Shown here: positions 36,562 through 47,566 of the stretch, piece by piece
Layout: each line of letters opens with the position of its first letter
Numbering within the stretch: position 1 is the stretch's first letter
Source of the DNA: Bacteroidia bacterium
Lineage (GTDB): Bacteria > Bacteroidota > Bacteroidia > Bacteroidales > Paludibacteraceae
Assembly (NCBI GenBank): GCA_009930305.1
Contig: RZYM01000004.1
Coordinates: 62,001 to 126,000 of the forward strand
Reading direction: 5' to 3'
DNA: 64,000 bases
Notes under the pieces: generated by a model
Database searches by the model: none
What the model was told of the DNA's origin: nothing
What the model saw: the letters and a program-made list of their open reading frames with translations, nothing else
Translations under genes and position numbers: made by a program

Positions 36562-37605
36562 TTAATTGTTTTCAGGACGTAATTTACGTACAACTGCACC
36601 GGCTTGCCACATTTCGCTTTCGCGTAAGGTCTTCAATTCTTTTTCCAAACCGGCACGATAGTCTGGTTTAGAGTTTGAGTCAATTGAAATTTGAGCTTCG
36701 TTACCTGCTTTTACACTAGCATATAATTTTTGCATAACAGGTTTGATTGCATCGTGGAAAGGTCCCATCCAGTCTAATGCACCACGTTGTGCTGTTGTTG
36801 AGCAGTTAGCATACATCCAATCCATACCGTTTTCAGCAAACAAAGGCATCAATGATTGAGTTAACTCTTCAACTGTTTCATTAAATGCTTCTGATGGTTC
36901 GTGCCCGTTTTCACGCAATGTTTCGTATTGTGCTAAAAGCAAACCTTGGATAGCACCCATTAAAGAACCGCGTTCGCCGGTAAGGTCTGATGTAGCTTCG
37001 CGTAAGAATGTTGTTTCGAACAAATAGCCGGAACCAACACCTACACCTAAAGCAACAACTTTATCAAAAGCATGACCCGAAGCATCTTGCCAAATAGCAT
37101 AAGATGAGTTCAAACCACGGCCTTGTAAAAACATACGGCGAAGTGATGTTCCTGAACCTTTAGGAGCAATCATGATAACATCAATGTCTTTTGGAGGAAC
37201 GATGCCTGTACGGTCATTCCATGTAATTCCAAATCCGTGAGAGAAATATAATGTTTTTCCTGCTGTAAGATTACGTTTTACAACTGGCCATAATTCAATT
37301 TGAGCTGCATCAGACAATAAATATTGTATGATTGTACCACGTTGGCAAGCTTCTTCAATTTCAAATAAAGTTTCACCCGGAACCCATCCGTCAGCAACTG
37401 CTTTATCCCATGTTTTACCTTTACGTTGACCAACTATAACGTTAAAACCATTGTCGCGTAGGTTTAATGATTGACCAGGACCTTGTACGCCATAACCAAT
37501 AACTGCTATAGTTTCATTTTTCAATACTTCACGTGCTTTTTCTAAGGGGAACTCTTCACGGGTAACAACATTCTCGATTACCCCGCCAAAATTCATTTGT
37601 GCCAT
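36562..37605 (-). CDS. ilvC: Ketol-acid reductoisomerase
   Basis: IAVIGYGVQGPGQSLNLRDNG, MIAPKGSGTSLRRMFLQGRGLNSSYAI. Confidence 0.96.
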   Translation of the reverse strand: MAQMNFGGVIENVVTREEFPLEKAREVLKNETIAVIGYGVQGPGQSLNLRDNGFNVIVGQRKGKTWDKAVADGWVPGETLFEIEEACQRGTIIQYLLSDAAQIELWPVVKRNLTAGKTLYFSHGFGITWNDRTGIVPPKDIDVIMIAPKGSGTSLRRMFLQGRGLNSSYAIWQDASGHAFDKVVALGVGVGSGYLFETTFLREATSDLTGERGSLMGAIQGLLLAQYETLRENGHEPSEAFNETVEELTQSLMPLFAENGMDWMYANCSTTAQRGALDWMGPFHDAIKPVMQKLYASVKAGNEAQISIDSNSKPDYRAGLEKELKTLRESEMWQAGAVVRKLRPENN

Positions 37606-37662
37606 AATTATTATGAATTAAAAATTTAAAGTTTAAACTGTATAAAACTTACAATTGAGTTG

Positions 37663-37670
37663 CAAAGGTA
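37663..37670 (-). promoter_or_regulatory. Bacteroidota -7 element (TACCTTTG), internal promoter for ilvC
   Basis: TAnnTTTG match in the ilvC-thioesterase gap. Confidence 0.45.
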
Positions 37671-37720
37671 CGTTTTTTTTATTGAAAGTAAACTTTTTTG
37701 TTATTATCTATGCTTAAATA

Positions 37721-38458
37721 TTACAATCTCCATGTTATTGCCGCTCTACAAAGTGAAAAATTATCATTGTCAGTTAAATTAAACAATGATTTGTTTTCGC
37801 CTTCGGAACGAACAATCTTAATACTTTGCCCATACAGAGCTTCGTGCATATAGTTGATATCAAATCGAGTGATACGTCTGTCTTTTAGAGTATCAGGCGA
37901 ATAAGTGTCTAGCATCCATTCTGCATATTTCATGCTATTGGTGTGCTGATTAAAGTCAATATCACTGAATCTTACACGATGCTCAGAAATTAATTCTCCA
38001 CTTATTGTAGATATGCTAATAGGATCTTCAACTTCGTGTGATTCTTCGGTTGCGTATTGTTGCCATTCCGGTTTGTTCCTCAAATCAAAAGGACGTCTCG
38101 TTTTTAAATCTATTACAGCCCATTGCGATGATGCTTTACATATTTCTTCTCCCTTGCTGTTATAAATTTTGAAATTTCGGGTAGTAAATACTCTGCTGTA
38201 ATTTTTTACCCAAGTTTCAATTTTTATGACATCATACATTTTAGGAAGTTGATCAATGCATATAGATAAACGCGAAACAACCCAAGTAAGACCTTCTTTT
38301 AACAAGAATTTCATACCAAAATTGTGATTTTCGGCAGCATCACCGGCTGTATTCAAAATTGCAGAACCAAGTGCAGTCAACGACATATATCCCGAACAAT
38401 CAACCTCTTGTGGGCCGATATGATGGGTAAATGTCTGAGTTAATTCATCTTTGTTCAC
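37721..38458 (-). CDS. Acyl-ACP thioesterase (FatA/FatB-like)
   Basis: Double hot-dog pattern: LTWVVSRLSICIDQLPKMYDVIKIETWV, FNQHTNSMKYAEWMLD. Confidence 0.9.
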   Translation of the reverse strand: MNKDELTQTFTHHIGPQEVDCSGYMSLTALGSAILNTAGDAAENHNFGMKFLLKEGLTWVVSRLSICIDQLPKMYDVIKIETWVKNYSRVFTTRNFKIYNSKGEEICKASSQWAVIDLKTRRPFDLRNKPEWQQYATEESHEVEDPISISTISGELISEHRVRFSDIDFNQHTNSMKYAEWMLDTYSPDTLKDRRITRFDINYMHEALYGQSIKIVRSEGENKSLFNLTDNDNFSLCRAAITWRL

Positions 38459-39009
38459 TACAATTGTTTGTTTTTTATTTTCGAATCTATACCGGCAAGC
38501 ATGTCGCTTAAACGTTCTACACGTCCACGTGTAATTGCTACACGCCCTGAACGTATAAATTGTAATACGCCTATGCTGTTTTGTAGCTCGTTAAACATCT
38601 CTTGAGTCTCTTGGTAAAGACCTGTTTTTTCAAGAACTACACAATTGTCAAGGATTTCGAGTACGCGAGTGTTGTATTTGCGTATTAAATACTCGATACC
38701 ACCCATCGCCAAAACTTTGTCTGTAGCTAATTTGAATAAAGCTATTTCTTGATATATCAGCTCATCATCAGTATTATAGTATGCTTTTAATATATCAACA
38801 CGCTTATCTATTTGTTTTACTACCTTTTTTATAGTATCTAAATCGGTAACTACCGTTATGGTAAACTTATGGATACCTTTAATGGCAGATGGAGATACTG
38901 ATAATGTTTCAATATTTATTTGCCTACGAGTAAATACAATGGTAATTTGATTCAAAAGACCTGGTGTATTCTCAGAAAAAACGGTTACGGTATATACTTT
39001 ATTTTCCAT
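38458..39009 (-). CDS. ilvN: Acetolactate synthase small subunit
   Basis: YTVTVFSENTPGLLNQITIVFTRRQINIETLSVSPS ACT domain. Confidence 0.93.
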   Translation of the reverse strand: MENKVYTVTVFSENTPGLLNQITIVFTRRQINIETLSVSPSAIKGIHKFTITVVTDLDTIKKVVKQIDKRVDILKAYYNTDDELIYQEIALFKLATDKVLAMGGIEYLIRKYNTRVLEILDNCVVLEKTGLYQETQEMFNELQNSIGVLQFIRSGRVAITRGRVERLSDMLAGIDSKIKNKQL

Positions 39010-39012
39010 GAT

Positions 39013-40716
39013 TTATTTCTCCTCTCCTAATAAAATGTCAGTAACAGCACCACCTGCCGGTGTCATAGGATATACAAGACCAGCTTCTTCAACATTAACT
39101 ATTAACAAAAATGCTTTGTCATCGGCAATCATTTCGGTAATTGCATTATCTAATTCATCACGTTTCGAAACACATTTGCTTTTGATTCTGTATGCACTAG
39201 CAATCGCCTGAAAATCAGGATTAACCATAGGTGTATATGAGTAGCGTTTGTGGAAAAATAATTCTTGCCATTGACGTACCATACCTAAGTAATTGTTATT
39301 TAGAATGATGATTTTAACACCTAAATTTTCTTGCATTATAGTGCCAAGTTCTTGTAGTGTCATTTGGAAACCACCATCTCCACAGAACAAACATACCGTG
39401 CGATCGGGTGCAGCTATTTTTGCTCCTATTGCTGCAGGTATACCGAATCCCATGGTACCCAAACCACCGGATGTTACTACACTGCGTTTTTTGCTAAACT
39501 GAAAATATCTAATGGCAACCATTTGATTTTGTCCTACATCGGTTACCAATATTGCTTCTTTATTTGTTGCATCAGAGATTCTTTTGACAACTTCAGCCAT
39601 TTTGATCGGGCTATCGCTGCTTGGATTAAGGTCGTGTTTTATTACAGAGTTCAACTCTTGCTTGTAATAATCATCGAATGATGCGATCCATTCTGTATGT
39701 TTTGTTTCTTTAATAAGTGCTGTTACAGCAGGTATTGTTTCTTTAACATCACCAATTACAGCGAGGTCTGTTTTTATATTCTTATCTATTTCAGAAGGGT
39801 CTATATCAAAATGAATGATTTTAGCTTGTTTGGCATAGGCGTTGAGATCCCCGGTTATGCGGTCGTCAAAACGCATACCTATTGCTATTAAAACATCACA
39901 TTCGTTAGTTTTTAAATTAGGACCAATATTGCCGTGCATACCAAGCATACCTTTGTTTAAATGATAGTCTGTCGGCATAGCAGATTCGCCAAGCAGTGTC
40001 CATGCTGCAGGTATATCGGCTTTGTCGAGCATCTGCATTAATTCGTCTTCGGCTTGTCCTATAGTAACACCATGTCCGATGAGGGCAAATGGTTTTTTTG
40101 CATTGTTTATTAAATCGGCAGCTGCCTTTATTTTTTCAGGATTCATTTCAGGTACAGGGATATAGCTGCGTATAAAATTGCATACTTCAGGTTTGTAATC
40201 GACTTTTGCAAATTGTGCATTCTTTGTAAAATCAAGTACAACAGGACCCGGACGTCCGCTTTTAGCAATATAAAATGCTCTTGCAACAGCCCATGCAATC
40301 TCTTTGGGATCACGTATTTGATAACTCCATTTTGTTATTGGTTGTGTTATACCGACTAAGTCAGTTTCCTGAAATGCATCAGTTCCTAAGATACCTGCGG
40401 GAACTTGACCTGCAATTACTACCAAAGGGGTACTATCCATCTGTGCATCAGCAATACCTGTAATGGCATTTGTAGCACCCGGACCTGATGTTATTATAAC
40501 AACACCTGGTTTTCCACTTACACGAGCATATCCTTGTGCTGCATGTGTTGCTCCTTGTTCGTGACGCACTAAAATATGCCTTAGTTTGTCTTTGTAATCG
40601 TACAAAGCATCAAATACCGGAATTATTTGTCCACCGGGATACCCGAAAATAGTATCCGTCCCTTCGTTTAAAAGTGCTTCCATTAGGGCATAAGCACCTG
40701 CCATTGTATTTGCCAT
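39013..40716 (-). CDS. ilvB: Acetolactate synthase large subunit
   Basis: TIFGYPGGQIIPVFDALYDY, RHEQGATHAAQGYARVSGKPGVVIITSGPGATN. Confidence 0.97.
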   Translation of the reverse strand: MANTMAGAYALMEALLNEGTDTIFGYPGGQIIPVFDALYDYKDKLRHILVRHEQGATHAAQGYARVSGKPGVVIITSGPGATNAITGIADAQMDSTPLVVIAGQVPAGILGTDAFQETDLVGITQPITKWSYQIRDPKEIAWAVARAFYIAKSGRPGPVVLDFTKNAQFAKVDYKPEVCNFIRSYIPVPEMNPEKIKAAADLINNAKKPFALIGHGVTIGQAEDELMQMLDKADIPAAWTLLGESAMPTDYHLNKGMLGMHGNIGPNLKTNECDVLIAIGMRFDDRITGDLNAYAKQAKIIHFDIDPSEIDKNIKTDLAVIGDVKETIPAVTALIKETKHTEWIASFDDYYKQELNSVIKHDLNPSSDSPIKMAEVVKRISDATNKEAILVTDVGQNQMVAIRYFQFSKKRSVVTSGGLGTMGFGIPAAIGAKIAAPDRTVCLFCGDGGFQMTLQELGTIMQENLGVKIIILNNNYLGMVRQWQELFFHKRYSYTPMVNPDFQAIASAYRIKSKCVSKRDELDNAITEMIADDKAFLLIVNVEEAGLVYPMTPAGGAVTDILLGEEK

Positions 40717-40718
40717 AT

Positions 40719-41153
40719 CTATCTTTGTGTAAATAATAATTTCTTTTTAAAAATAAAATTCCATACAAACACTATAATTGTTGTAATTAACTTTGATAAC
40801 ATGTAATATATAGAACACAAACTTGTAAACACCCACATCAGTCCGATATTTAGAAGAATTCCGCTTAGTCCGATTAATAGGAAAACTGAAAATTCAACAA
40901 TCTTATCTTTTGTTCTGTGTTCATCAAATATCCAATAAATACTTAGTATATATGTAATTACCAATCCTACCGAAAACCCGCAGGCGCTTGATACTAAGTA
41001 ATGAAATCCTGCATATTCTGTCAAAATATATAGGGTTACATAATCAAAAACAAACGCCAACCCACCAGAGCATATATATCTGCATATTTGCACCAACGTG
41101 CTATGAGCAGGCTTTTTGCCAAGTACTTCTTTTATGAGCGTTATCAGGTTCAT
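40719..41153 (-). CDS. GtrA family membrane protein
   Basis: Four TM helices; QICRYICSGGLAFVFDYVTLYILTEYAGFHYLVSSACGFSVGLVITYILSIYWIF. Confidence 0.9.
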   Translation of the reverse strand: MNLITLIKEVLGKKPAHSTLVQICRYICSGGLAFVFDYVTLYILTEYAGFHYLVSSACGFSVGLVITYILSIYWIFDEHRTKDKIVEFSVFLLIGLSGILLNIGLMWVFTSLCSIYYMLSKLITTIIVFVWNFIFKKKLLFTQR

Positions 41154-41890
41154 GTAAATAATTTAGAATACATAAGTTTCCATTTGCACAGTTTGTATAC
41201 AATTGATACTCTGATAACTCCGAGCCCATAAATTGTACTGCGTTTTAAATTAATTGATGATGCATCGTCAAAATATTTGGTAGGGCAGGTTATTTCTCCT
41301 ATTTCGTAACCTTTCATAAATATTTGTGCCAGCATTTCGTTGTCAAAAATAAAATCGTCAGAATCGACATTGTAATTTATATTTCTTAGTACTTGTGCCG
41401 AAAATGCTCTGTATCCTGAATGATATTCTGACAGTTTTTGATGTAACAAAATATTTTCAAATAATGTCAGGCATCTGTTAGACACGTATTTAATAATAGG
41501 CATCCCTCCTTTTAATGCACCCATACCTAAAATCCGTGAGGCCATAACAACAGGGTATAAATCATTGGCGATTAAGTATGATATTGAATGTATTAACTTT
41601 GGAGTATATTGATAATCAGGATGTAACATAATAATTATATCGGCTCCTAATTCCAATGCTCTATTGTAACACGTTTTCTGATTGCCTCCATAACCTTTGT
41701 TCTTTTCGTGAATCAGAACTTCTTTTATACCAAGTTCTTTGGCTTTGGCAATGGTATTATCTTTACTGCAATCGTCAGTTAAAATCACTTCATCAACAAT
41801 GTCGAGAGGGATTTCTTTATATGTTTGCTCCAATGTTTTTTCTGCATTGTAAGCAGGCATTACAACTACGATTTTTTTTTCGTTTAGCAT
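41150..41890 (-). CDS. Glycosyltransferase family 2 (polyprenyl-phosphate sugar transferase-like)
   Basis: KIVVVMPAYNAEKTLEQTYKEIPLDIVDEVILTDDCSKDNT, IIMLHPDYQYTP. Confidence 0.92.
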   Translation of the reverse strand: MLNEKKIVVVMPAYNAEKTLEQTYKEIPLDIVDEVILTDDCSKDNTIAKAKELGIKEVLIHEKNKGYGGNQKTCYNRALELGADIIIMLHPDYQYTPKLIHSISYLIANDLYPVVMASRILGMGALKGGMPIIKYVSNRCLTLFENILLHQKLSEYHSGYRAFSAQVLRNINYNVDSDDFIFDNEMLAQIFMKGYEIGEITCPTKYFDDASSINLKRSTIYGLGVIRVSIVYKLCKWKLMYSKLFT

Positions 41891-41891
41891 T

Positions 41892-43553
41892 TTAATAAAT
41901 TTGTGGTTTGCGAACATAAAAAGCAAACCCATTCTTTTTATTTATCAGTTTTGCATCTTGAACTTCTGATTCGAAACTGCTTACTTCCAATGAAATATCT
42001 TTAAGTACAAAATAACAATCTTTGTCTAACTGCCCATGCATTAAATATTGTGCATCTGCATTTTTGTTTTGTATTTGTCTGTCAGAGTAAAAGTACTGTG
42101 CGTAACTTTTAAAATACGGCAAATATATATAGCAATCTTCAGTCTTTTTACTTTCATAAAACTCAATGGCAGCAGCCTGAGAATATTTCTCAACTTGTGG
42201 AACTATAAATAATAATGCCGAATATATGAATATTATGCTTGATGCACACATAATGCTAAAATTCTTATAGCTAAGTATTTTATTTGATTTAATGCACATC
42301 CACACAACGCCTAATATAAAAATAAGACTGAATGCAAACTCAAATCCGTACCAAGTAGCATTTGCTTGCATGTTTCCTATAGCAAACTCATCTAATATGT
42401 ATGGGTATAATAAATGCTTGAAATTGTCGAATTGTGTTACCAAAGTAACTGCAAAACCAAGCAAGCAAGCCATTATTATTAGTAAAATCTTTACATATTT
42501 AGGCATCACTGTTTTCCCATTCATGTATCTTTCGCATGCAAATGCCGCAATAAATGTTAGTGGGAAATAGCACATTGACGAGTAGTGTATGATTTTAGTT
42601 CTGACTATTGAGAATAAAATTAAAACTACCCAGAACAGAATCATCATCCATTTGTAAAAACGCTTGAATGATTCATCTTTTTCTGTATTTGTTATTTTAT
42701 AGTTGAATGCCGGCAATGACAATATTGATGCAGGGAACACTCCTATAAAAAGAATCACAAAATGATACAGAGGGAATCCTCCATGTCCTGCGTCTTTTGT
42801 TTCAAATAATCGTATTTGGTAAACAATAAAATCTTGTATTATTGAAAAATTTCCATCAATTATTTGTAAGATAAACCATAACCCTCCGGTTAATGCTAGT
42901 ATAATAAAAAACAATATAGCTTGATGCCATTTAAAATTTAATTTAAAGTTGTTGGTAATAAGATATATGCAAAAAGTTAAACAGAATATCAATAATCCGA
43001 CAGGTCCTTTAGTTAATATTGCTAAGCCTAAGAAAAAAGCTGATGCAAAAACTTTGATGGTGCTGTGTTTCCTATTTCCGGGGTCTGTGAAAATTATAAA
43101 ATAATATGTTCCCAGAAATATAAATAGATTGAACCACGGGTCGATAATTCCACTTTTAAAATACATAAATGGCAATAATGAACATGCGTATAACATTGTC
43201 CACAACAGTCCGAAACGTCTGTCTCTTATTTTACTGCCTATATTATATAATACGAGCAATGTTATGATTCCGCATATTGCATCAGGTATACGAGCAGCAA
43301 ATTCATTAATTCCGAATAATTTCATCGAAACTACTTGCATCCAAATAAATAAGGGGGGTTTCTCCCAGAATTGTTCATAATTTATTTGTACTGTAAGATA
43401 ATCGCCGCTCATAATCATTTCGCGAGCAGACTCTGCAAAATTGATTTCATCCCAATCGAATAGATGAACTGAACCTATTCCTGGTATAAAAAATAATGCT
43501 GCTGCAATAGCAATACCTATTTGAATTAATATATTTTCTGTCTTTGCACTCAT
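41892..43553 (-). CDS. ArnT-like glycosyltransferase (GT39/GT83 type)
   Basis: FDWDEINFAESAREMIMSGDYLTVQINYEQFWEKPPLFIWMQ motif; multiple TM helices. Confidence 0.88.
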   Translation of the reverse strand: MSAKTENILIQIGIAIAAALFFIPGIGSVHLFDWDEINFAESAREMIMSGDYLTVQINYEQFWEKPPLFIWMQVVSMKLFGINEFAARIPDAICGIITLLVLYNIGSKIRDRRFGLLWTMLYACSLLPFMYFKSGIIDPWFNLFIFLGTYYFIIFTDPGNRKHSTIKVFASAFFLGLAILTKGPVGLLIFCLTFCIYLITNNFKLNFKWHQAILFFIILALTGGLWFILQIIDGNFSIIQDFIVYQIRLFETKDAGHGGFPLYHFVILFIGVFPASILSLPAFNYKITNTEKDESFKRFYKWMMILFWVVLILFSIVRTKIIHYSSMCYFPLTFIAAFACERYMNGKTVMPKYVKILLIIMACLLGFAVTLVTQFDNFKHLLYPYILDEFAIGNMQANATWYGFEFAFSLIFILGVVWMCIKSNKILSYKNFSIMCASSIIFIYSALLFIVPQVEKYSQAAAIEFYESKKTEDCYIYLPYFKSYAQYFYSDRQIQNKNADAQYLMHGQLDKDCYFVLKDISLEVSSFESEVQDAKLINKKNGFAFYVRKPQIY

Positions 43554-43559
43554 AAAAAG

Positions 43560-45392
43560 TTAATCAATTAAGCGAACAGCTCCTTTGTCAGCAGAACTAA
43601 CTAAAGATGCGTATGCTCTCAAAGCTTTTGATATTTCGCGATTTCGTCCTATTGGTTTAAAGGCATCTTTACCGCGTGCTTCTTCTTCTTTTCTGCGTGC
43701 GGCTAACTCTGCATCACTCAATTTTACATTAATGCTGCGAGCCGGTATATCTATCTCTATAATGTCGCCATCTTTTATTAAACCTATATTTCCACCTGAT
43801 GCAGCTTCCGGTGAAATGTGACCTATACTTAGTCCTGATGTACCTCCTGAAAAACGTCCGTCAGTTATTAAGGCGCATTCTTTACCCAAGTGGCGTGATT
43901 TGATGTATGAAGTAGGGTAGAGCATCTCTTGCATACCCGGTCCACCTTTAGGCCCTTCGTGTGTGATAACAACTACGTCTCCTGCTTGAACTTTATTGCC
44001 TAAGATACCGTCACAAGCTGATTCTTGTGAGTTAAACACAACAGCTTTGCCGCTAAATTTCCATAAACTTTCGTCAACGCCTGCAGTTTTAATAACGCAT
44101 CCGTCTATGGCGATATTTCCTTTTAAAACGCCAAGTCCACCATCTTTGGTATAGGCGTGAGCCATATCTCTTATGCAACCTTCTGCACGGTCCGTATCAA
44201 AATTGTTGTATGTGGTATTTTGTGAACCTAATTCCAAATTGAATTTATTGCAAGGTGCACTTGAATATATGCGTTTTGCATCGTCTGAAATGTTATCTGA
44301 GCATATATCATATGCTTTAATAACTTCTCCTACTGTCATGCCGTCAACTCGTTTTGCTTCTGTATGTAGCAAACCGCCTTTTGCCAATTCATTTAATATC
44401 CCGAGTACACCTCCTGCGCGATTTACATCTTGCAAGTGGTATTTTGCTGTATTAGGGGCTACTTTACACAAACATGGTGTTTTGCGAGATAGTTGGTCTA
44501 TGTCTTCCATTGTAAAATCAACTTCTGCTTCGTGTGCAATAGCGAGCAAGTGCAAAACAGTATTGGTAGAACCGCCCATTGCAATGTCTAATGTCATAGA
44601 ATTTAAAAATGCATTACGTGTTGCAATACTTCTAGGTAAAACGCTTTCGTCTCCGTTTTCGTAGTACGCAAGTGCATTTTTTACAATCTGTTTTGCAGCA
44701 TCCATAGCTAATCTTCTACGATTTGCGTGTGTAGCTAATATAGTTCCATTGCCCGGAAGCGCCATTCCAAGTGCTTCATTAAGGCAATTCATTGAATTCG
44801 CTGTGAACATACCTGAACAACATCCGCAACTAGGACATGCGCTATGTTCGATTTCGTTTACATCTTTATCCGAAACGCTTGTATCTGCCGATTTTATCAT
44901 TGCATCAATAAGATCCAAGTGTTGTCCTTTCCATTCTCCGGCTTCCATAGGTCCGCCTGATACAAAAACTGCAGGGATGTTTAGTCGCATAGCTGCAATA
45001 AGCATACCCGGGGTTATTTTATCGCAATTGCTTATACAAATCATTGCATCAGCTTTGTGTGCGTTAACCATATATTCAACGCTATCTGCAATAATATCTC
45101 TACTTGGTAGGGAATATAACATGCCATCATGTCCCATTGCTATACCATCATCAATTGCAATTGTGTTAAATTCAGCAGCGAAACAACCTAAGCTTTCAAT
45201 TTCAGCTTTGATTTCTTGTCCTATTTCGTGTAAATGTACGTGTCCGGGAACAAATTGTGTGAATGAGTTGACAACAGCAATAATAGGTTTGCCTACTTGA
45301 TTCGGTTTCATACCATTAGCACGCCACAAAGCTCTGGCTGCTGCCATTCTTCTGCCTTGTGTACACTGATCGCTTCTAAGAGAATGTTTCAT
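43560..45392 (-). CDS. ilvD: Dihydroxy-acid dehydratase
   Basis: [68 protein letters not shown]. Confidence 0.97.
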
Positions 45393-45416
45393 ATTTTGTT
45401 ATGTTAAGTTTTACAG

Positions 45417-45458
45417 AAAAAAAAACCTTCCCCATTTTGGCGGGAAAGGTTTTTTTTG
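45417..45458 (-). terminator. Intrinsic terminator in the ilv leader (attenuator)
   Basis: Minus strand AACCTTTCCC-GCCAAAAT-GGGGAAGGTT followed by a T9 run (counting the two stem T's), 25 nt before ilvD ATG; flanking A8 can extend the stem. Confidence 0.88.
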
Positions 45459-45490
45459 ATATCAATTCACATACCCGTCTTCATGAATGT

Positions 45491-45541
45491 TTATACCTTC
45501 AAGACTACAAAACCCACGACTACGGATACAATAACTTTCAT
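45491..45541 (-). CDS. Val-rich leader peptide for ilv operon attenuation (MKVIVSVVVGFVVLKV)
   Basis: ATG AAA GTT ATT GTA TCC GTA GTC GTG GGT TTT GTA GTC TTG AAG GTA TAA; 8 Val, 1 Ile, 1 Leu in 16 codons; promoter upstream, terminator downstream. Confidence 0.85.
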   Translation of the reverse strand: MKVIVSVVVGFVVLKV

Positions 45542-45560
45542 TTTTCTTCTTATTAGACCA

Positions 45561-45589
45561 CAAAAGTACAATTTTTTTTTGAAAACAAA
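45561..45589 (-). promoter_or_regulatory. ilv operon promoter: -33 TTTG (45586-45589) and -7 TACTTTTG (45561-45568)
   Basis: Exact consensus elements, 17 nt spacer, placing the start just upstream of the leader ATG. Confidence 0.7.
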
Positions 45590-45817: not shown

Positions 45818-47566
45818 ATGGAAAACAATTTACTATTGGATGTTCGTAAGAAAGCTGAGGTATGGCTTAACGGAGATTACGATCAAGACACAAAAAATCA
45901 AATAAAAGCTTTACTTGATAACGAAGACACTACCGATTTGATAGAATCTTTTTATAAAGATTTAGAATTCGGAACAGGTGGTTTACGCGGTATTATGGGT
46001 GTCGGTACAAATCGAATGAATATTTATACCGTAGGAGCAGCTACTCAAGGCTTGGCAAATTTCTTAAAAAAAGAATTTGGTAAAACAAAACAAATTAAAG
46101 TTGTTGTAGGTTATGATTGTAGAAACAATAGCCGCTTGTTTGCTGAAACAACAGCCAATATTTTTTCTGCAAATGGAATAAAAGTTTATTTGTTTGAGAA
46201 TCTACGTCCAACTCCCGAAATTTCATTTGCTATTCGCGAATTAGGCTGCCAAAGTGGTGTAGTAGTAACAGCAAGTCATAATCCAAAAGAGTATAATGGA
46301 TACAAGGCTTATTGGGAAGATGGTGCGCAAGTAATTCCTCCATACGACACAGGCATCATTTCTGAGGTAAATAAAATCAAACATATAGAGAATATCCATT
46401 TTGAGGGTAATCCTGAATTGATAGAAATTATAGGTGAGAATATCGACAATCTATTTTTAGATAAAATCAAAAAATTGTCTTTGTCACCTGACTCCATATC
46501 TCGTAATAAAGATATGAAGATTGTATATACTCCAATACACGGAACCGGTATAACATTGATACCTAAGGCATTGAAAATGTATGGATTTACCAATATTATT
46601 GATGTACCTGAGCAAAATGTAATAAGTGGAGATTTTCCAACAGTTAAATCTCCAAATCCGGAAGAACCTGCAGCTTTAAAATTGGCTGTAGATAAGGCTA
46701 GTTCTGTTGATGCAGATATAGTTATGGCTTCAGACCCAGATGCAGACCGTATGGGTATAGCTGTAAAGAATGATAAGGGCGAATGGATTTTAGTTAATGG
46801 TAATCAAACAGCACAAATGCTAGTTTATTACTTGATTCGTCGTTATAAAGAATTAGGACGTTTAAAGGGTAAAGAATATATTGTTAAAACAATAGTAACC
46901 ACAGAGCAAATAGCTGAGATTGCTAAACGCTATAAAGTTCCTTATTTTGATTGCTATACAGGTTTCAAATGGATTGCTGCGATTATTCGTGAGCAGGAAG
47001 GGAAAAAACAATACATAGGTGGTGGAGAAGAAAGCTACGGATTCTTGGTTGAAGACTTTGTTCGTGATAAAGATGCAGTGTCATCTTGTGTTATTATGGC
47101 AGAAATTGCAGCCTGGGCAAAAGATAATGGCAAAACAGTTTACGAGCTATTACAAGATATTTATTTGGAATTTGGATTCTCTAAAGAAAAAGGAATATCT
47201 GTAGTTAAAAAAGGGAAATCGGGTGCCGAAGAAATCAAGAAGATGATGACTCAATTTCGTAGTTGTCCTCCTAAAGAAATAGCAGGTTCTAAGGTTACAA
47301 TTATTAAAGACTATAATGCATTGCGCATGATAGATTTAGCTGCCGGAGCAACAACTAATATGGAAATGCCTGAAACTGCAAATGTATTGCAATACTTTAC
47401 AGAAGATGGTACTAAAATATCTGTCAGACCTTCAGGAACAGAACCGAAAATCAAATTTTACGTAGAAGTTAGACTTCCATTGAAATCGCGCGAAGAATTT
47501 GATGCTGTTGATGCTGCTGCAGAAGAAAAAATTTTGGCAGTTAAGAAATCCCTGCATTTAGATTAA
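45818..47566 (+). CDS. Phosphoglucomutase/phosphomannomutase family (phospho-sugar mutase)
   Basis: FGTGGLRGIMGVGTNRMNIYT, VVTASHNPKEYNGYKAYW, ASDPDADRMGIAV, SVRPSGTEPKIKFY. Confidence 0.95.
   Translation: MENNLLLDVRKKAEVWLNGDYDQDTKNQIKALLDNEDTTDLIESFYKDLEFGTGGLRGIMGVGTNRMNIYTVGAATQGLANFLKKEFGKTKQIKVVVGYDCRNNSRLFAETTANIFSANGIKVYLFENLRPTPEISFAIRELGCQSGVVVTASHNPKEYNGYKAYWEDGAQVIPPYDTGIISEVNKIKHIENIHFEGNPELIEIIGENIDNLFLDKIKKLSLSPDSISRNKDMKIVYTPIHGTGITLIPKALKMYGFTNIIDVPEQNVISGDFPTVKSPNPEEPAALKLAVDKASSVDADIVMASDPDADRMGIAVKNDKGEWILVNGNQTAQMLVYYLIRRYKELGRLKGKEYIVKTIVTTEQIAEIAKRYKVPYFDCYTGFKWIAAIIREQEGKKQYIGGGEESYGFLVEDFVRDKDAVSSCVIMAEIAAWAKDNGKTVYELLQDIYLEFGFSKEKGISVVKKGKSGAEEIKKMMTQFRSCPPKEIAGSKVTIIKDYNALRMIDLAAGATTNMEMPETANVLQYFTEDGTKISVRPSGTEPKIKFYVEVRLPLKSREEFDAVDAAAEEKILAVKKSLHLD

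Follow-up and report, generated by a model that had tools for sequence, protein, structure and literature searches.

The ilvD gene of a gut bacterium of the order Bacteroidales is very probably preceded by a ribosome-mediated transcription attenuator of the classical type, to judge from the sequence of its leader and from the leaders of its relatives. Attenuation by leader peptides is a textbook mechanism, known from enterobacteria. The mechanism class is known, then; sequence comparison adds, with good support, that a widespread, covarying element appears to be conserved before ilvD in the Bacteroidales, a dominant order of the animal gut. Such an element would yield a rule, direct and testable, that governs when these bacteria commit to valine synthesis, and its leader is an unannotated small gene that could be sought by ribosome profiling. 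Throughout, ‘the window’ denotes the whole stretch of DNA that was analysed, 64,000 nucleotides in length.

The ilvD leader and the genes behind it

All parts of the leader lie on the minus strand. The putative promoter (45561..45589) consists of a −33 element, TTTG (45589-45586), a 17-nt spacer, and a −7 element, TACTTTTG (45568-45561), which fits TAnnTTTG; together these conform to the Bacteroidota sigma consensus. The pattern TTTG-N17-23-TAnnTTTG occurs just 9 times on the two strands of the 64 kb window. The promoter is followed by a leader peptide ORF of 16 codons, MKVIVSVVVGFVVLKV* (45491..45541), comprising 8 Val, 1 Ile and 1 Leu. Eight of the 15 residues after Met are thus Val, a fraction (0.53) that ranks first among the 663 distinct ORFs, 10-30 codons long and beginning with ATG, that the two strands of the window contain; the runner-up reaches 0.44. 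The core of segment 1, UGUAUCCGU (45522..45530), falls within codons 4-7, early in the Val run, and the whole segment 1 arm extends over approximately 45536-45506. The core of segment 2, ACGGGUAUG (45470..45478), lies 3' of the leader stop codon, and is the candidate for both the antiterminator arm and the partner of segment 1. Segment 3, the terminator 5' arm (AAACCUUUCCC, 45441..45457), and segment 4, the terminator 3' arm with its U tract (GGGGAAGGUU, 45416..45434), make up the terminator hairpin; the assignment of segment 4 draws on sequence, hairpin and covariation. This predicted intrinsic terminator (approximately 45456-45419; dG −18.9 kcal/mol) carries a U tract and stands about 25 nt 5' of ilvD. 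It was not reported by a simple terminator scan of the window. The original prediction had claimed the promoter, the 16-codon Val-rich ORF and the terminator about 25 nt before ilvD; all three are present where it had placed them, and the parts stand in the order and spacing expected of an attenuator.

The 5' neighbour of ilvD is a divergent, phosphohexomutase-like gene (45818-47566, plus strand), and no same-strand gene ends just 5' of the leader region. Because the neighbour is divergent and nothing on the same strand ends upstream, the terminator would be premature for ilvD and would act only on ilvD-bound transcripts. One might suppose instead that a short ORF lies by chance beside an ordinary terminator ending some other unit, short ORFs being present in many intergenic regions and single terminators being common. 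That no same-strand gene ends there, that the Val fraction tops the 663 ORFs, and that the arrangement is conserved and covaries (see below) all speak against this; the comparative data already disfavour it, and we consider it extremely improbable.

The first gene of the presumed operon, ilvD itself (43560..45392, minus strand), encodes dihydroxy-acid dehydratase and matches NCBIfam NF009103/TIGR00110 above cut-off; it would be the first gene under control of the attenuator. On the same strand, and separated by short gaps, follow genes identified by family matches as a GT39-like glycosyltransferase (GT39/ArnT-like; 41892-43553), a GT2 (41150-41932), a GtrA-like protein (40719-41153), ilvB (39013-40716) and ilvN (38458-39009). 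An acyl thioesterase-like gene (37721-38458) separates ilvN from ilvC (36562-37605), the last identified by inspection of its translation. The genes from ilvD through ilvC (36562..45392) are presumed from this layout to form one operon. Three membrane glycosylation-type genes (40719-43553) are inserted between ilvD and ilvB, which would place them behind a valine attenuator. In most relatives, ilvB directly follows ilvD; the GT39 gene is common to the nearest named relative (L006/L016). The thioesterase-like gene inside the ilv operon is of the acyl-ACP/acyl-CoA kind.

Conservation and covariation among relatives

Regions upstream of ilvD were gathered from the genus, from named genomes and from the family, and were scanned for a terminator preceded, at a distance of 5-100 nt, by a short ORF; a locus passed when the Ile+Leu+Val content of the ORF gave p <= 0.05 and the terminator had dG <= −9. 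A Val/Leu/Ile-rich leader with a terminator was found before ilvD in 66 of 132 Bacteroidota loci, versus none of 264 shuffled regions and none of 22 ilvD loci from outside the phylum. Pooled, the leaders are composed of 22% Val, 18% Leu and 14% Ile, and a TAnnTTTG element stands directly 5' of the leader ATG in the relatives also. Named carriers include Bacteroides, Phocaeicola, Paludibacter, Tannerellaceae, Dysgonomonadaceae, Prolixibacteraceae, Labilibaculum, Alistipes and Odoribacter; the named genus closest to the window is Candidatus Enterocola (Bacteroidales). What the window's leader has in common with most of these is composition, not sequence. A phylum-wide search for ilvD returned mostly a distant ilvD type, of about 50% identity. 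Alignment of the regions 5' of ilvD had been proposed as a check, and it bears the idea out: branched-chain-rich ORFs are conserved in relatives, and the terminator covaries.

Within the window's genus, the device occurs before ilvD in 4 of the 14 genomes that have ilvD (the window, L006, L008 and L014), and is absent from the other 10. Six of the genomes without it (L002, L005, L007, L010, L012 and L013) keep the divergent phosphohexomutase-like neighbour, with neither leader nor terminator 5' of ilvD. In L004, the phosphohexomutase-like gene instead shares the strand of ilvD and lies directly 5' of it; L011, too, has this gene directly 5' of ilvD, with its end readable just before ilvD. Val codon usage in ilvD leaders is uneven (GTC 155, GTG 128, GTT 28 and GTA 24, across 74 Bacteroidota loci), and the window's leader is unlike its relatives in this respect, with GTA making up 4 of its 8 Val codons. 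The nucleotide motif CGTCGTGG recurs in ilvD leaders.

Covariation was assessed in a MAFFT alignment of 75 ilvD leaders. For the terminator (3:4), 95.6% of cells are paired and 11 of 12 pairs have changed on both sides, a result matched in 0 of 500 shuffles. For the antiterminator (2:3), 75.3% of cells are paired and 48 cells are double-changed, with 0 of 500 shuffles doing as well on either count, and the signal peaks at slide 0; how many pairs show double changes is unremarkable, since 222 of 500 shuffles match that number. The shuffle control leaves sequence relatedness in; the slide control removes it. That covariation is weaker for 2:3 than for 3:4 is due in part to register slips. In the relatives, the segment 2 arm begins at the leader stop codon with the consensus GGUGAGnAnGGUUnUGU. 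This arm is similar to the terminator 3' arm and complementary to its 5' counterpart, CCUUUCUCACC. Across 76 leaders, the segment 2:3 duplex has a median z of −3.0 versus shuffles, and starts at a median of 3 nt before the stop codon.

Dependence of the 2:3 pairing on the position of the ribosome was predicted for the transcript as it stands before segment 4 is made. In three leaders (L161, L008 and L096), predicted 2:3 pairing is high with the ribosome on the control codons and drops as the ribosome nears the stop codon. Equilibrium folding of the full leader barely shows the switch, because the terminator then wins almost wherever the ribosome stands; the switch is revealed only when the transcript is folded without segment 4.

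Other regulatory elements, such as T-boxes, metabolite riboswitches and protein-bound leaders, likewise take the form of a structured leader and terminator ahead of a biosynthetic operon, and were one of these at work here, the Val-rich ORF would be accidental. Rfam holds no family matching the ilvD leader: scans of the window and of six related or leuA loci gave no family at gathering score and no T-box match, and the sub-threshold matches were scattered over unrelated families, including the Thr leader (25 of 55 bits). Branched-chain-rich ORFs, moreover, recur before ilvD and appear in 0 of 264 shuffles. We judge a regulator of another kind to be very unlikely.

Pairings in the window and the proposed switch

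In the window itself, covariance-model alignment identifies AAGACGGGUAUGUG, starting 9 nt after the stop codon, as the counterpart of the conserved segment 2 arm. Two other placements of this arm proved wrong: that in the MAFFT alignment, which the covariance-model alignment corrected to AAGACGGGUAUGUG, and that of a first pass taking the best duplex per leader, which chose the wrong arm for the window (z +1.0). The dominant predicted structure is the 1:2 hairpin, in which UGUAUCCGU, within the Val codons, pairs with ACGGGUAUG, extended by their flanks. The leader up to the terminator has an MFE of −22.1 kcal/mol, with 1 of 1000 dinucleotide shuffles folding as low, and the z for segment 1:2 in the window is −3.6. 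Val codons 3-9 overlap segment 1, and the 1:2 hairpin is lost in silico when they are masked. With a ribosome on codons 5-12, 1:2 cannot form, and the remaining transcript is predicted to pair CGGG with CCCG of the terminator arm, a 2:3 fold; from codon 13 onward, 1:2 pairing may return if it is allowed to span the ribosome. Unlike in the relatives, a ribosome at the stop codon of the window's leader leaves segment 2 uncovered.

The 2:3 pairing of the window is weak (−5 to −7 kcal/mol), about half of the shuffles being as good, and on this account the antiterminator step in the window's genome rests on homology. Apart from the terminator hairpin, none of the particular pairings proposed from the window's sequence in the original prediction held up, although the complementary letters are present. 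Pairing of GAAGGU with ACCUUU as the antiterminator (−6.2 kcal/mol) is no better than chance, 13% of shuffles doing as well, and does not involve the conserved arm, which aligns to AAGACGGGUAUGUG; the suggested alternative, through GGGUUUU, is at chance level, its best pairing being matched by 17% of shuffles; and the GUCUU/AAGAC pause hairpin is not a favoured fold, the far larger 1:2 hairpin being favoured instead. The broader proposal, an attenuator of the ilv operon, fares well on the comparative evidence of leaders and of covarying terminator and antiterminator, and loses its antiterminator arm and its pause hairpin.

The weakness of the 2:3 pairing, both in the window and in its genus relative L014 (z −0.1), could mean that the device is in decay: a remnant of an ancestral Bacteroidales attenuator, whose antiterminator has eroded in this genus and whose terminator now serves mostly to hold ilvD transcription at a fixed, low level. 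Its absence from most members of the genus, even where the divergent neighbour persists, fits such a history. Erosion ought to have cost the leader its codon bias, however, and here the Val run is retained, as are the spacing of the promoter and a 1:2 hairpin far beyond chance; a sharp predicted attenuator is also kept at leuA of the same genome (see below). Decay seems to us unlikely, though deserving of some weight.

A working attenuator would operate as follows. RNA polymerase would start at the TTTG/TAnnTTTG promoter, and the leader would be translated as it emerges. With ample Val-tRNA, the ribosome would reach the stop codon and leave; segments 1:2 and 3:4 would then pair, and transcription would end before ilvD. 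With Val-tRNA in short supply, the ribosome would stall in the Val run (codons 3-9) and cover segment 1. Segment 2, so freed, would pair with segment 3, the terminator would fail to form in time, and transcription would run on into ilvD and the genes that follow. We infer that the leader is translated, that valine is the signal, and that the weak 2:3 pairing is used in the window's genome; the switch step ascribed to the window is borrowed from what its relatives appear to do. In the ilvB leader of Streptomyces coelicolor, replacing the candidate regulatory codons was without effect (work cited in PMC1262725), and from this it follows that a leader of such a kind is no proof of attenuation.

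Known attenuators, and a second candidate switch before leuA

Enterobacterial ilvL (ilvGMEDA) and ivbL (ilvBN) resemble the ilvD leader in having a short peptide rich in branched-chain residues, in standing before ilv genes that they control and, as predicted from the leaders of relatives, in having mutually exclusive antiterminator and terminator. They differ in phylum, peptide, RNA sequence and order of the controlled genes, and in that most relatives build the segment 2 arm around the leader stop codon. The match to ivbL/ilvL that had been drawn accordingly extends to the logic and not to homology, there being no Rfam family at gathering score and no ilv leader among the sub-threshold matches. 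Leader-peptide attenuation of ilv operons in E. coli and Salmonella is among the work cited in PMC5794164. The ilvD leader of Staphylococcus aureus likewise places a leader peptide and a terminator directly before ilvD, and its amino-acid-dependent attenuation has genetic support; its peptide is Leu-rich where the window's is Val-rich, and its proposed antiterminator spares the terminator stem and pairs with the poly-U tail (PMC5794164). Actinobacterial ilvB leaders have short ORFs with runs of Ile/Val/Leu codons, and terminators, before ilv genes, but their ORFs overlap the terminator and their mode of regulation is disputed by Streptomyces mutants (PMC1262725, PMC10272879).

A survey in 2010 found leader-peptide attenuation known only in Proteobacteria and Actinobacteria, to which Firmicutes were then added (PMC2965389). 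Nearer to the window, ORFs that recall leader peptides occur in some of the long 5' UTRs of B. thetaiotaomicron (PMC7366714), and the transcriptome of Flavobacterium psychrophilum, from the same phylum and another order, is described as offering strong hints of attenuation by leader peptides ahead of operons for amino-acid biosynthesis, with no ilv leader named in the main text (PMC9723704). We found no earlier description of an ilvD leader attenuator in Bacteroidales, and one may have been predicted in the broader comparative literature on attenuation.

A covariance model (R1) was built from the 75 ilvD leaders and used to search the window's genome. The window is its best match there, at 52.6 bits, as expected given that it is one of the 75 training sequences. 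The matches are mostly ordinary terminators, and the fourth, a weak one, is a leader directly 5' of leuA (contig C116:105431-105506, E 0.09; L214, minus strand). It encodes an Ile/Leu-rich leader peptide, MTNFSIILSIIILLQSSGK*, with a terminator and a strong predicted antiterminator. The antiterminator arm, GGAAGUAAG, overlaps the stop codon, and its predicted pairing with CUUACUUCC of the terminator is free of mismatches; the whole duplex amounts to −17.8 kcal/mol, reached in 3 of 1000 shuffles. As the ribosome changes position, the predicted switch is sharp, with 2:3 pairing high on the control codons and low near the stop. Ile-rich leaders also occur before leuA or leuCD in other members of the genus (L186, L188, L189, L193, L213, L215-L217 and L222), and the relatives' proteins encoded behind these leaders pass the NCBIfam cut-offs for 2-isopropylmalate synthase. 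Tentatively, branched-chain amino acid sensing in Bacteroidales may be split over at least two ribosome-read switches of one design, one reading Val (with Leu/Ile) before ilvD, and the other Ile/Leu, nearly free of Val, before leuA or leuCD. If so, the Ile run would imply that the leuA operon also serves isoleucine supply, for example by a citramalate-type route; unless it does, one would not expect a run of Ile ahead of a leucine operon.
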